From Thermincola ferriacetica (GTDB lineage Bacteria > Bacillota > Thermincolia > Thermincolales > Thermincolaceae): a DNA stretch of 58,477 nucleotides. Position numbers and translations under genes: made by a program. The first letter of the stretch is position 1; the number at the start of each line of letters is the position of its first letter. The DNA is taken from contig NZ_LGTE01000020.1 in assembly GCF_001263415.1 (NCBI RefSeq), positions 1 to 58,477 on the forward strand, read 5' to 3'. The notes beneath the pieces are model-generated. The model saw nothing but the letters and a program-made list of their open reading frames with translations, was not told the DNA's origin and searched no databases. Shown here in pieces: positions 37,149 to 39,924 of the stretch.

Positions 37149-38030
37149 CTAAGGGTCGGAATAAAAGTAATCATATGCCAACCCGTACATTATATCGGTT
37201 TCACTAATAACAATTTCCGGAAGTCGGAGTTCAGACAATATAACCTCCAAAATAGCGATACCGGCCAAAATAATATCCGCTCTTTCGGGCTGTAGACCTT
37301 TTACCTGCCGTCTGGCATGCAAGTCCATAGCAGCTAGCCACTCCCCAATTTCTGTTATTCTTTCCAAAGACAGCCGGTATCCGTGGACCTTTTCCGGAGA
37401 ATAAACGGCCAGTTTCTGGTCTATAGCCGCCAAAGTAGTAGCTGTCCCCCCTATACCCACAGTATTGGAAGGTAAGTCCTCTTTTACTTTGTCTAAAACT
37501 GGCTGTAAAATTCTATATATCACACCTTTCGTACTCTTCATTTCTGTCATACGTACGGCTCCGACCTTGGAACTGGTATAATTAACCCCGTTCTGCGATT
37601 CCCAGATAAGTTCCGTACTCCCGCCGCCGATGTCGATAACCAGGGGATGTGCTAGTTTTTGTGGCAGTCCTTTAACTACCCCCAGGTACCCCAGGCGAGC
37701 CTCTTCTTCACCGGAAATTACTCTGATTTGCCATCCCAGTTCCCTTTTCACTTTATCCAGGAAATACTCTTTGTTGGAAGCTTCTCTGACAGCGCTTGTA
37801 GCTATTAAAATAACTTTTTCTACGCCCTGTCCGGAGCAAATATCTTGAAATTCCCGCAGCGCCTTGACGGTCCTGACAATTGCTTCCTCCTGCAAGCAGG
37901 TAGAAGCCGCCATCCCCTGGCCCATGCGGGTAGTAACCAGGTAGGACCCTCTGACCAGCAGTTCCTGTTCTTTTGTTACTATTAACATGCGTACAGAATT
38001 GGTTCCAATGTCAATAACCCCTAATTTCAA
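37149..38030 (-). CDS. Exopolyphosphatase/guanosine pentaphosphatase family protein
   Basis: Ppx/GppA-family ASKHA phosphatase acting on polyphosphate or pppGpp. The 293-residue protein has LGVIDIGTNSVRMLIV, IATSAVREASN, VISGEEEARLGYLGV, VIDIGGGSTELIWE and IGGTATTLAA. It is the short form without the C-terminal HD domain. The start is probably the TTG at 38030 (MKLGVIDIG), with GGGGGTG upstream. It follows the S1-domain gene. Which substrate is used cannot be decided from sequence. Confidence 0.92.
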   Translation of the reverse strand: MKLGVIDIGTNSVRMLIVTKEQELLVRGSYLVTTRMGQGMAASTCLQEEAIVRTVKALREFQDICSGQGVEKVILIATSAVREASNKEYFLDKVKRELGWQIRVISGEEEARLGYLGVVKGLPQKLAHPLVIDIGGGSTELIWESQNGVNYTSSKVGAVRMTEMKSTKGVIYRILQPVLDKVKEDLPSNTVGIGGTATTLAAIDQKLAVYSPEKVHGYRLSLERITEIGEWLAAMDLHARRQVKGLQPERADIILAGIAILEVILSELRLPEIVISETDIMYGLAYDYFYSDP

Positions 38031-38086: not shown

Positions 38087-38455
38087 TTATCTTCTCCTGC
38101 CACGGCCACCCCTTTTGGAGTCAAGGCTGCGCCTAAGGTCCTGCTGCCGTTCATCGCTATCCTTCATAAATTTGGTAATCATATCTTCAAAAGACGCGCT
38201 GTATCGTTTTTCATGCTTTGGCTTGGGATTGGCCTGTTTGATGGACAAACCGATCTTTCCGTTTTCAATGGCAATAACCTTAACTTTCACTTTGTCTTTG
38301 TCTTTAAGATAATCCTTGACATCCTTAACGTAAGCCTCGGCCACTTCGGAAATGTGCACCAGGCCCGTTTCTCCTCCGGGTAGTTCCACAAAAGCTCCAA
38401 AGTTAGTAATGCCCGTTACAACTCCTTCTAAAATGCTACCAACCTCGATGGCCAT
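38087..38455 (-). CDS. yabR: S1 RNA-binding domain protein, YabR/GSP13 type
   Basis: A 122-residue protein with one S1 domain (residues 1-75): VGSILEGVVTGITNFGAFVELPGGETGLVHISEVAEAYV, then KVKVKVIAIENGKIGLSIKQA. A basic C-terminal tail (RRSLDSKRGGRGRRR) follows. B. subtilis YabR lies in the same position beside divIC and is ribosome- or RNA-associated. The start at 38455 gives MAIEVGSILEG; AAGGAGG lies 12 bases upstream. Confidence 0.92.
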   Translation of the reverse strand: MAIEVGSILEGVVTGITNFGAFVELPGGETGLVHISEVAEAYVKDVKDYLKDKDKVKVKVIAIENGKIGLSIKQANPKPKHEKRYSASFEDMITKFMKDSDERQQDLRRSLDSKRGGRGRRR

Positions 38456-38573
38456 TAATACGCAATGCCTCCTTAAGTTATAACAACAGTTAAAAAAGCA
38501 GTCATCGAGTAACCATACTCCACACATATAGTAGAATTATAAACTCAAGTTGAACCTTAGTCAAGATGACTTT

Positions 38574-38978
38574 TTAATGAACTTCAATATTTTTTCTTTC
38601 TTCTTCTGTTATCTGTTTCATATCCTTGGGTTTTACCTCCAGAATAAGCTTTTCACCCGGTTTTACCAAACCCAGCTTTTCTCTTGCCGCATGTTCTACC
38701 CAGGATTGAGATTCCAATTTATTAATCTGTTTTTTCAACTCCTCATTTTTCTTTTTCAATTGTTCCATTTCCTGCTGAATCTCTTTTACTTCCCGCTGGA
38801 CATTATAAGTTTCGGCCATTTGTCCGCCAAAAGAGTAAACGGCAAAACCCAAAGTAATCATTAATACTATTCCCGGCCCACCAAGTTTAAAATGTTTTTT
38901 CTTCTTTTTCAGAGGCGGGTTGTGTACGGGCAAACTTACTACCCTGGCCTGTCTTTTTGCTTTTGCCGATAATACCAT
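38574..38978 (-). CDS. divIC: Cell division protein DivIC (FtsB-like)
   Basis: Bitopic divisome protein that partners FtsL and DivIB. The 134-residue protein has a basic cytoplasmic N-terminus (PPLKKKKKHFK), one membrane segment (GPGIVLMITLGFAVYSFGG) and an external coiled coil (REVKEIQQEMEQLKKKNEEL), then WVEHAAREKLGLVKPGEK, typical of the family. Its ATG overlaps the stop of the small HTH gene by one base. Order yabP, yabQ, divIC, S1 protein agrees with B. subtilis. Confidence 0.93.
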   Translation of the reverse strand: MVLSAKAKRQARVVSLPVHNPPLKKKKKHFKLGGPGIVLMITLGFAVYSFGGQMAETYNVQREVKEIQQEMEQLKKKNEELKKQINKLESQSWVEHAAREKLGLVKPGEKLILEVKPKDMKQITEEERKNIEVH

Positions 38979-39211
38979 TAAGCTTCACTCTCCTCTTCAT
39001 CAGAACCAAAAAGCCCCAATGAATCCCCCGGAATAACAATAACTACCTGATAACCTTTATTCCTGGCACGGTTCAAAAGAGTGGCCACTGTACTACTGGT
39101 CAGACCCAATTTAGCCCCAATCTTTTCATTCGAGTAGCCCATCTCTTTTAAAGTAACAACTTGCCGTTCTCTAAAGCTTAACTTTTCGGCGCCTCTTATT
39201 TCAATTTGCAT
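38978..39211 (-). CDS. Small helix-turn-helix protein coupled to divIC
   Basis: A 77-residue protein: LSFRERQVVTLKEMGYSNEKIGAKLGLTSSTVATLLNRARNKG is a sigma-70 region 4/LuxR-type HTH, with the expected E-R-Q-V and G-x-S-x-x-x-I pattern. An acidic tail follows (SDEEESEA). It lacks any sensor domain. The stop codon overlaps the divIC start, so the two are translationally coupled. Upstream lies a promoter and a DnaA-box-like array. A regulatory role over its own operon is possible; it is not in the B. subtilis cluster. Confidence 0.8.
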   Translation of the reverse strand: MQIEIRGAEKLSFRERQVVTLKEMGYSNEKIGAKLGLTSSTVATLLNRARNKGYQVVIVIPGDSLGLFGSDEEESEA

Positions 39212-39237
39212 AAACTCACCTATTCCAGCCGACCCGG

Positions 39238-39300
39238 TTATCGACAGGTTATCGACAAGTTATCGACTAGCTATATTTATTTATCCACAGTTTGTCCACA
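39238..39300. promoter_or_regulatory. Array of DnaA-box-like nonamers with 11-base period
   Basis: TTATCGACA (39238), TTATCGACA (39249) and TTATCGACT (39260) repeat every 11 bases. After 21 bases there is the perfect DnaA box TTATCCACA (39281), then TTGTCCACA (39292), again 11 bases on. All point the same way. The array lies downstream of the promoter at 39306-39334 and upstream of the HTH-divIC genes, so a DnaA filament here could block transcription. The first three boxes carry G in place of the usual C at position 6. Confidence 0.6.
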
Positions 39301-39305
39301 ATATG

Positions 39306-39334
39306 TGTATAATTTTAGTACAAGATTTGTACAA
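39306..39334 (-). promoter_or_regulatory. Promoter with palindromic operator ahead of HTH-divIC-S1
   Basis: On the minus strand TTGTAC (39329-39334) and TATACA (39306-39311) are 17 bases apart. The -35 is part of the palindrome GTACAA-N3-TTGTAC (39318-39332), a plausible operator, perhaps for the small HTH protein itself. Confidence 0.5.
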
Positions 39335-39417
39335 GTTTAGTATTAGCGTTTGTTATTCTACATTTAGCTAATTTTTCCTGCCTGGTTATATAAAATTTAG
39401 TAAACTTAATAAAATTT

Positions 39418-39924
39418 TTACGGAGGGGGATCCTTTTTTTCACCTTTAATCGTCAGTCTGGATAAAATACGCCGGATACCTGTTTTTATAGAAATTAGAA
39501 GAGAACCAATTAATCCTACAGGTATAAGCACTACTCTCCTAATTAAATTTACTGGGTAACCGACTATCCGGTACAAAAAAAGAACCACTTTAACTATTTC
39601 TAGTTTTATGGTTCTTATTGCCTTAATTATCAGGAGGATAGTTTTAATGACCCTTGAACTGAATATTTTCAGATATATGGTACTACCCAGCAGCAATCCA
39701 ATAAAAACATATAGCCGTATTTCTCCCCAGTTTCCCAACAGCAGAAAAAGGAAAATAATAAACGTGCTAATTATCCAAAATATCAGGTCTCCCAAATGAG
39801 TAATTATCTTTTTGGGCCTGATTACCCCCCGGGCCACTCTGTAAAAATCAAACAATAACCCTAACAAAAAGCCCCCACAAACAGTGACTCCGAAAGCGAA
39901 TAATTGGGTTGAAAGATTCTGCAT
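39418..39924 (-). CDS. yabQ: Spore cortex protein YabQ
   Basis: Membrane protein needed for spore cortex formation in B. subtilis. The 168-residue protein starts with LFAFGVTVCGGFLLGLLFDFYRVARG and has further hydrophobic segments (LIFWIISTFIIFLFLLLGNWGEIRLYVFIGLLLGS), with a basic C-terminal region. The FDFYRV-R motif is typical of the family. It is 42 bases downstream of yabP. Confidence 0.92.
   Translation of the reverse strand: MQNLSTQLFAFGVTVCGGFLLGLLFDFYRVARGVIRPKKIITHLGDLIFWIISTFIIFLFLLLGNWGEIRLYVFIGLLLGSTIYLKIFSSRVIKTILLIIKAIRTIKLEIVKVVLFLYRIVGYPVNLIRRVVLIPVGLIGSLLISIKTGIRRILSRLTIKGEKKDPPP

Follow-up and report, generated by a model that had tools for sequence, protein, structure and literature searches.

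Which proteins read the leader of the HTH–divIC–S1 operon of Thermincola ferriacetica is the question raised by a row of DnaA-box-like nonamers at positions 39212–39417 of the window (the whole stretch of DNA analysed, 58 477 nucleotides). A first-pass annotation had proposed a DnaA road-block acting on a division gene. The nonamers were confirmed; of the interpretation, the reading of one box pair as DnaA sites gained support, and the proposed promoter and the direct link to divIC did not. The reading preferred here, held with middling confidence, is that the leader may carry a composite operator read by DnaA together with a second protein, probably the HTH protein.

The operon and its leader array in Thermincola

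The operon lies on the minus strand and has the gene content first annotated: a small HTH protein of 77 residues with a sigma-region-4/LuxR-type fold and flanking β-strands (38978–39211), the septum formation initiator DivIC (PF04977; 38574–38978) as second gene and a YabR-like S1-domain protein (38087–38527) as third. The neighbour on the upstream side is yabQ (39418–39924, minus strand). The HTH protein matched PF08281 (35.8 bits) and PF00196 (27.4 bits), both above the cut-offs, and is Sigma70_r4_2/GerE-like by these profiles. In its predicted structure (pLDDT 89) the HTH is placed between two β-strands, and the model aligns with NarL, GerE and sigma region 4 over ~45 residues at ~1 Å, with Foldseek E-values above 0.05. 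The predicted fold is consistent with DNA binding and is silent on the sequence bound.

All five nonamers were found where they had been reported, on the plus strand: TTATCGACA at 39238 and 39249, TTATCGACT (two mismatches) at 39260, the perfect DnaA box TTATCCACA at 39281 and TTGTCCACA at 39292. Successive distances are 11, 11, 21 and 11 bp. The spacing of one helical turn described at first pass therefore holds for three of the steps, but the slot said to be skipped spans 21 bp (2 × 10.5) and not 22 bp. Three same-direction pairs 11 bp apart (at most two mismatches) occur in the 206-bp intergenic region, and three such pairs were obtained in 0 of 5000 dinucleotide shuffles of it; the arrangement is not due to chance.

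The first pass had overlooked a further, sixth box that points the other way (TTATACACA, 39304–39312, minus strand), two more TTGTAC units in the 11-bp register (39313–39334) and, further upstream, the sigma-H-type promoter described below. On the coding (minus) strand the region reads as a single run of 11-mers from 39334 down to 39236, of which the first-pass annotation had noticed the downstream part. The run begins with TTGTACAAATC (39324–39334) and TTGTACTAAAA (39313–39323), both assigned to the TGTA class by the mixture model described below. It continues with TTATACACATA (39302–39312), which contains the box TTATACACA in coding-strand orientation, and with TTGTGGACAAA (39291–39301) and CTGTGGATAAA (39280–39290), which contain the plus-strand boxes TTGTCCACA (39292–39300) and TTATCCACA (39281–39289), in the same direction and separated by a 2-bp gap. 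After a degenerate slot, one base short, follow AGTCGATAACT (39258–39268; TTATCGACT on the plus strand), 21 bp from the perfect box, and two copies of TGTCGATAACC (39247–39257 and 39236–39246; TTATCGACA on the plus strand); these three units are lineage-specific and unconserved. The third unit can also be read as a possible sigma-A −10 element (TATACA), and slots of its type in relatives hold TTGTACACA or TTGTCCACA. An extra TTATCGACA within the ppx coding sequence (37631–37639 of the window, minus strand) is probably a chance occurrence.

Conservation of the leader and its promoter

At least part of the HTH gene was found in 23 of the 41 nearest genomes. Of 398 genomes sampled from the phylum, 155 had it, always as a single copy. 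divIC comes after it in 76 of 80 named loci, and the culturable genera among these loci include Moorella, Carboxydothermus, Desulforamulus and Pelotomaculum. In-frame stops flagged in four genomes (G279, G280, G087 and G054) are the normal stop codon. At locus L023 (G023) the HTH gene lacks its first half and the downstream divIC is intact; at L320 (G192) the HTH reading frame is broken, a case that is uninformative because the array is also weak in sister genomes whose HTH gene is intact.

For the main comparison, 149 non-redundant leaders of the HTH–divIC operon were used. Their design is strikingly conserved; their sequence is not. TGT recurs every 11 bp exactly, with at least three consecutive units in 128/149 leaders, a TTRTNCACA box in 107/149 and an exact TTATCCACA in 73/149. 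Among the first 89 non-redundant leaders, two TGT triplets lay exactly 11 bp apart 227 times, against 5.9 times in shuffles, and harmonics appeared at 22, 33 and 44 bp. The five nonamers are part of a longer, broadly conserved array, which is shared by a large group of spore-forming bacteria.

The first-pass annotation had asked that nonamers and spacing be kept in relatives, and had named their loss in close relatives as evidence against it. Consensus boxes proved to be conserved across many families. The three boxes of the TTATCGACA/TTATCGACT type are not kept in the nearest relatives: the nine genomes of the order have a single TGTCGATAA between them (in G006), and in 30 dnaA loci of relatives the C6-to-G change that gives TTATCGACA occurred once against 83 exact TTATCCACA; for these boxes the evidence thus falls on the side that the annotation had named as contrary. 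Their appearance suggests that the 11-bp unit was multiplied locally; DnaA binding to them alone seems doubtful, and beside a strong box possible. In a separate HTH gene leader (L103/L240) the 11-bp unit is expanded to a small satellite (TTGGGGTAACC ×4, TTGGGATAAGC ×4) that adjoins two exact DnaA boxes.

The predicted conserved promoter of the operon is of the sigma-H type and lies upstream of the array. In Thermincola it consists of a −35 element, GCAGGAAAA (39373–39381, minus strand), an 11-bp spacer and a −10 element, GTAGAATAA (39353–39361, minus strand), which fit both halves of the published consensus (RNAGGAWWW, ~11 bp, RNNGAATWW; PMC8510167). The strict form is present in 58/148 leaders against 0.33 expected by shuffle, and a looser form in most leaders. 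In many, the TGTAGAA of the −10 element is itself the first TGT slot of the array. The boxes do lie between promoter and genes, as first proposed, but it is the sigma-H-like promoter, at a greater distance upstream, that is conserved, and the palindromic −35 of the promoter first proposed at 39306–39334 is instead two TGTAC units of the array. That sigma-A-like promoter, TTGTAC-N17-TATACA, does occur in the Thermincola genome and may be used there; it is not the conserved promoter, its −10 element being unconserved and relatives having TGTACA in its place. A sigma-H-like promoter also precedes divIC at L192, L195, L199, L201, L202, L203 and L204, all of which lack HTH gene and array. Sigma-H control of divIC therefore looks independent of the HTH gene.

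Candidate readers of the array

Units were classified with a mixture model of 523 units, the class number being chosen by BIC. The best mixture has three classes, TGT[C/A]CACA (26%), TGTGGATAA (24%) and TGTA[G/C/A][T/A] (50%), in proportions that depend on the register rule demanding TGT in the unit. The first two represent DnaA boxes, one class for each orientation; the TGTA units are not DnaA boxes. Deviations from the box consensus are found at positions 1, 3 and 5 but are rare at 4 and 6, box positions inside the TGT being fixed by the unit-picking procedure.

At the Thermincola locus, TTATCCACA (39281), TTGTCCACA (39292) and TTATACACA (39304) conform to the DnaA consensus TTATNCACA; judged by 30 dnaA loci and the leaders of relatives, the TTATCGACA/T boxes do not. 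By sequence the pair 39281/39292 also has the other marks of a DnaA site, a second box 2–3 bp away in the same direction and a motif as at the organism's own origin; DnaA of Escherichia coli prefers pairs of boxes so spaced (PMC11317965). Tandem consensus pairs, searched at 2–3 bp, were found in 25 + 17 leaders, with a gap of 2 bp in 23/25 and 14/17, respectively, and facing pairs, searched at 1–4 bp, had a 3-bp gap in 46/46 cases. Among 41 genomes the tandem TGTGNAYAANNTGTGNAYAA gave 19 matches, nine at the HTH–divIC locus, six at dnaA and four elsewhere; the reversed control gave none. Pattern searches of the whole Thermincola genome (3.18 Mb, 78 contigs) found the tandem TTATCSACANNTTATCSAC, at no more than one mismatch, solely at the HTH–divIC locus and beside dnaA. 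The organism's own dnaA locus has a like tandem pair (TGTGTATAACCTGTGGATAA, G000:C29:26243), and such a pair also marks dnaA loci in genomes without the HTH gene (G019). That DnaA reads the consensus boxes is strongly, if indirectly, supported, and we infer that it binds them in vivo. The DnaA-box reading is thereby strengthened for the pair 39281/39292 and weakened for the three lineage-specific, off-consensus boxes.

Other DnaA-related features were noted in the survey. A cluster of DnaA boxes (TGTGAATAACCTGTGGATAATGTGGATAAGG and more) lies just downstream of tsaD/gcp, between it and lgt, in a genome without the HTH gene (L177, G018:C15:5118); in Bacillus subtilis one of the strongest DnaA regions is also downstream of gcp (PMC4447404). 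Isolated tandem pairs after rsfS (L173, G031:C9:38097) and at L176 (G024:C112:822) are possible further clusters. Shorter second DnaA-like open frames (G000:C1:28369–29376, G004:C100:1665–2633 and G005:C2:36807–37784) cover ~330–345 positions of the DnaA profile and so are without the C-terminal end; the one in the Thermincola genome (G000) shows an internal TAG.

Were DnaA the only reader, the array would be a graded filament site in which weak TGTA units are filled cooperatively from a strong gene-proximal anchor toward the promoter, with operon expression following ATP-DnaA; this is the road-block of the first-pass annotation, extended. Consensus boxes are indeed mostly gene-proximal (45/87 as TGTGNAYAA) and drop promoter-ward to 17, 3, 1 and 0. 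The tandem geometry resembles that of dnaA loci, and in E. coli weak neighbours of a strong box are bound (PMC11317965). Against this, 20 of 78 leaders, about a quarter, keep a TGT chain without any DnaA box, which argues that DnaA cannot be the sole reader. Two examples are L016 and L022, the latter with TGTACC units, and the dnaA loci of the same genomes carry a normal TTATCCACA. Action of DnaA by itself also leaves the one-orientation TGT register and the tie to the HTH gene, described below, unexplained, and we consider it an unlikely alternative.

The register shows at position 3 of the boxes. Boxes in coding orientation have G there (TTGT 84 : TTAT 22) and boxes in the opposite orientation have A (TTAT 103 : TTGT 23), a contrast with p = 3e-21 in a test that used no register rule and counted related genomes as independent. 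The corresponding counts for 30 dnaA loci are TTAT 127 : TTGT 8. G3 in coding orientation is exactly what keeps TGT in register. The bias shows a second constraint on the boxes, best explained by autoregulation through the HTH protein; alternatively, the G3 boxes could be deliberately weak DnaA sites.

The array also follows the HTH gene. Ten genomes with yabQ and no intact HTH gene, a small sample, had neither a three-unit chain nor a DnaA box at this place; most keep the sigma-H-like promoter, and all except G023 are simply yabQ–divIC. In G023, where half the gene is gone, the array is gone too. Where the HTH gene follows yabQ (18 genomes) a DnaA box was present in 16/18. The one-sided probability of this association, from the counts for the ten and 18 genomes taken as independent, is ~5e-6. 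An array in 0/10 genomes without an intact HTH gene is the distribution expected of an operator for HTH autoregulation. Because the array tracks the HTH gene and not divIC, any control of a division gene by DnaA, as first proposed, would be indirect at best and exerted by way of the operon. Most simply, the HTH protein would bind the TGT lattice and regulate its own operon, although regulation of the HTH gene by another factor may also explain why the array goes with it. No regulon beyond the operon was found, triple TGTANT and relaxed triple TGT arrays elsewhere being at about the control level. Action of the HTH protein at oriC was considered and rejected: dnaA loci have a similar 11-bp excess of TGT whether or not the genome carries the HTH gene, and DnaA boxes alone would produce it.

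A purely autoregulatory operator for the HTH protein, with the likeness to DnaA boxes coincidental or a by-product of its own preference, would account for this tie, for TGT being the sole element shared by all units and for the array being at no other locus. It is nevertheless rather improbable: TGTGGATAA occurs 53 times where independent positions predict 4.6, two distinct classes match DnaA boxes in both orientations, and in-register slots in which TGT has become TAT keep CACA more often (10/27 against 96/523, p = 0.02). The same pair, moreover, marks dnaA loci, including that of the HTH-less G019.

The composite operator draws on features shown by sequence statistics, namely the array with its register, the division of its units into three classes, the promoter and the co-occurrence with the HTH gene. 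A TGT triplet per 11 bp, or one helical turn, forms a lattice that runs from at or just after the −10 element toward the start codon. If transcription from the sigma-H promoter begins, as expected, a few bases below 39353, the array would occupy ~+10 to +110 of a ~130-nt leader. DnaA would bind the gene-proximal consensus boxes as close pairs (39281/39292, possibly with 39304). The second protein, which would need the TGT of each slot, would bind along the array and is most likely the HTH protein, regulating its own operon. Both would cover the transcription start itself or the DNA immediately beyond it. Since protein bound there is expected to repress by occlusion or as a roadblock, we infer repression as the direction of regulation, to be lifted when DnaA or the HTH protein runs low. 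The road-block first proposed is plausible as to its position downstream of a promoter; its link to the division gene is indirect.

Other regulators fit poorly. An operator for Spo0A (TGTCGAT units as its boxes) or WalR (TGTA units as its boxes) would suit a sigma-H promoter in early sporulation, and we regard it as highly improbable. The TGTCGAT units of Thermincola are one base off the Spo0A box TG[TA]CGAA, and Spo0A boxes overlap DnaA boxes at the B. subtilis oriC (PMC4285127). Spo0A was rejected, there being no strict TG[TA]CGAA in 39212–39417 and the CGA units being confined to the lineage (four GTCGATAA in 149 leaders). WalR boxes (TGTWAH-N5-TGTWAH; PMC9210968) share the TGT half-sites and the 11-bp period; here G or C predominates at position 5, strict pairs occur in 6/149 leaders, TGTWAH makes up 52/560 units, and the Thermincola units TGTACA, TGTACT and TGTGGA do not match, so that WalR was rejected as well. 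Neither regulator explains the tie to the HTH gene. An origin-proximal DnaA sink with an incidental effect on the operon is the least credible reading: the locus is 64–89 kb from dnaA on the same contig in three genomes (G017, G021 and G012) and so replicated early, and DnaA-box clusters outside oriC are known in B. subtilis, but a leader has just 2–3 consensus boxes, compared with 4–12 sites for the eight regions that are strongest in B. subtilis (PMC4447404), the register is fixed relative to promoter and gene, and the array is absent where the HTH gene is absent.

Relation to known systems and meaning

Double DnaA boxes at E. coli purH, polA and mutH/DARS2 (PMC11317965) are likewise two same-direction boxes 2–3 bp apart, in many cases a perfect box with an imperfect one, upstream of a gene or in its leader. 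In the present array, by contrast, the pair belongs to a more extended TGT lattice of 11-bp period that also has non-DnaA units and boxes of either orientation, and it lies downstream of a sigma-H-type promoter. The B. subtilis regions sda, ywlC, ywcI/vpr, yydA and gcp also have TTATNCACA boxes away from oriC, and some control a small regulatory gene (sda); here the boxes are fewer and in strict 11-bp register. The B. subtilis DnaA regions named in the text of PMC4447404 do not include divIC or yabQ. Spo0A, CtrA and AdpA resemble the proposed system in that a transcription factor and DnaA read overlapping sites (PMC4285127); here the overlap would be at the regulator's own promoter. No extra TGT register was seen at dnaA loci of genomes with the HTH gene.

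FtsL and DivIC are partners. DnaA binds the ftsL promoter in B. subtilis, according to the passage of PMC8203912 that cites Goranov (2005), which is again DnaA at the promoter of a gene for a divisome membrane protein. Here, in contrast, the first gene is a transcription regulator, divIC is second, and the array is lost without the HTH gene. DnaA as a regulator, double boxes and, from that same passage, DnaA at a divisome promoter are thus already known. In the open-licence literature no report was found of DnaA boxes, an 11-bp TGT operator or a function of the HTH family before divIC, nor of DnaA-box clusters with divIC or in the genera named above.

The putative TGT operator of the HTH gene is a larger finding than the DnaA part. 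It is also a first predicted operator for an uncharacterized 77-residue regulator. With its deep conservation and its DnaA geometry, it would precede an operon that has divIC as its second gene, and the culturable genera among the named loci make the question directly testable. A cell-cycle role is a more speculative matter. The HTH protein and DnaA, in sharing the lattice, might compete or cooperate on it, the operon sensing their balance and tying DivIC supply to the initiation of replication across a whole group of spore formers; we think this extension of the main reading unlikely. If true, it would be a previously undescribed device for coupling replication to division.
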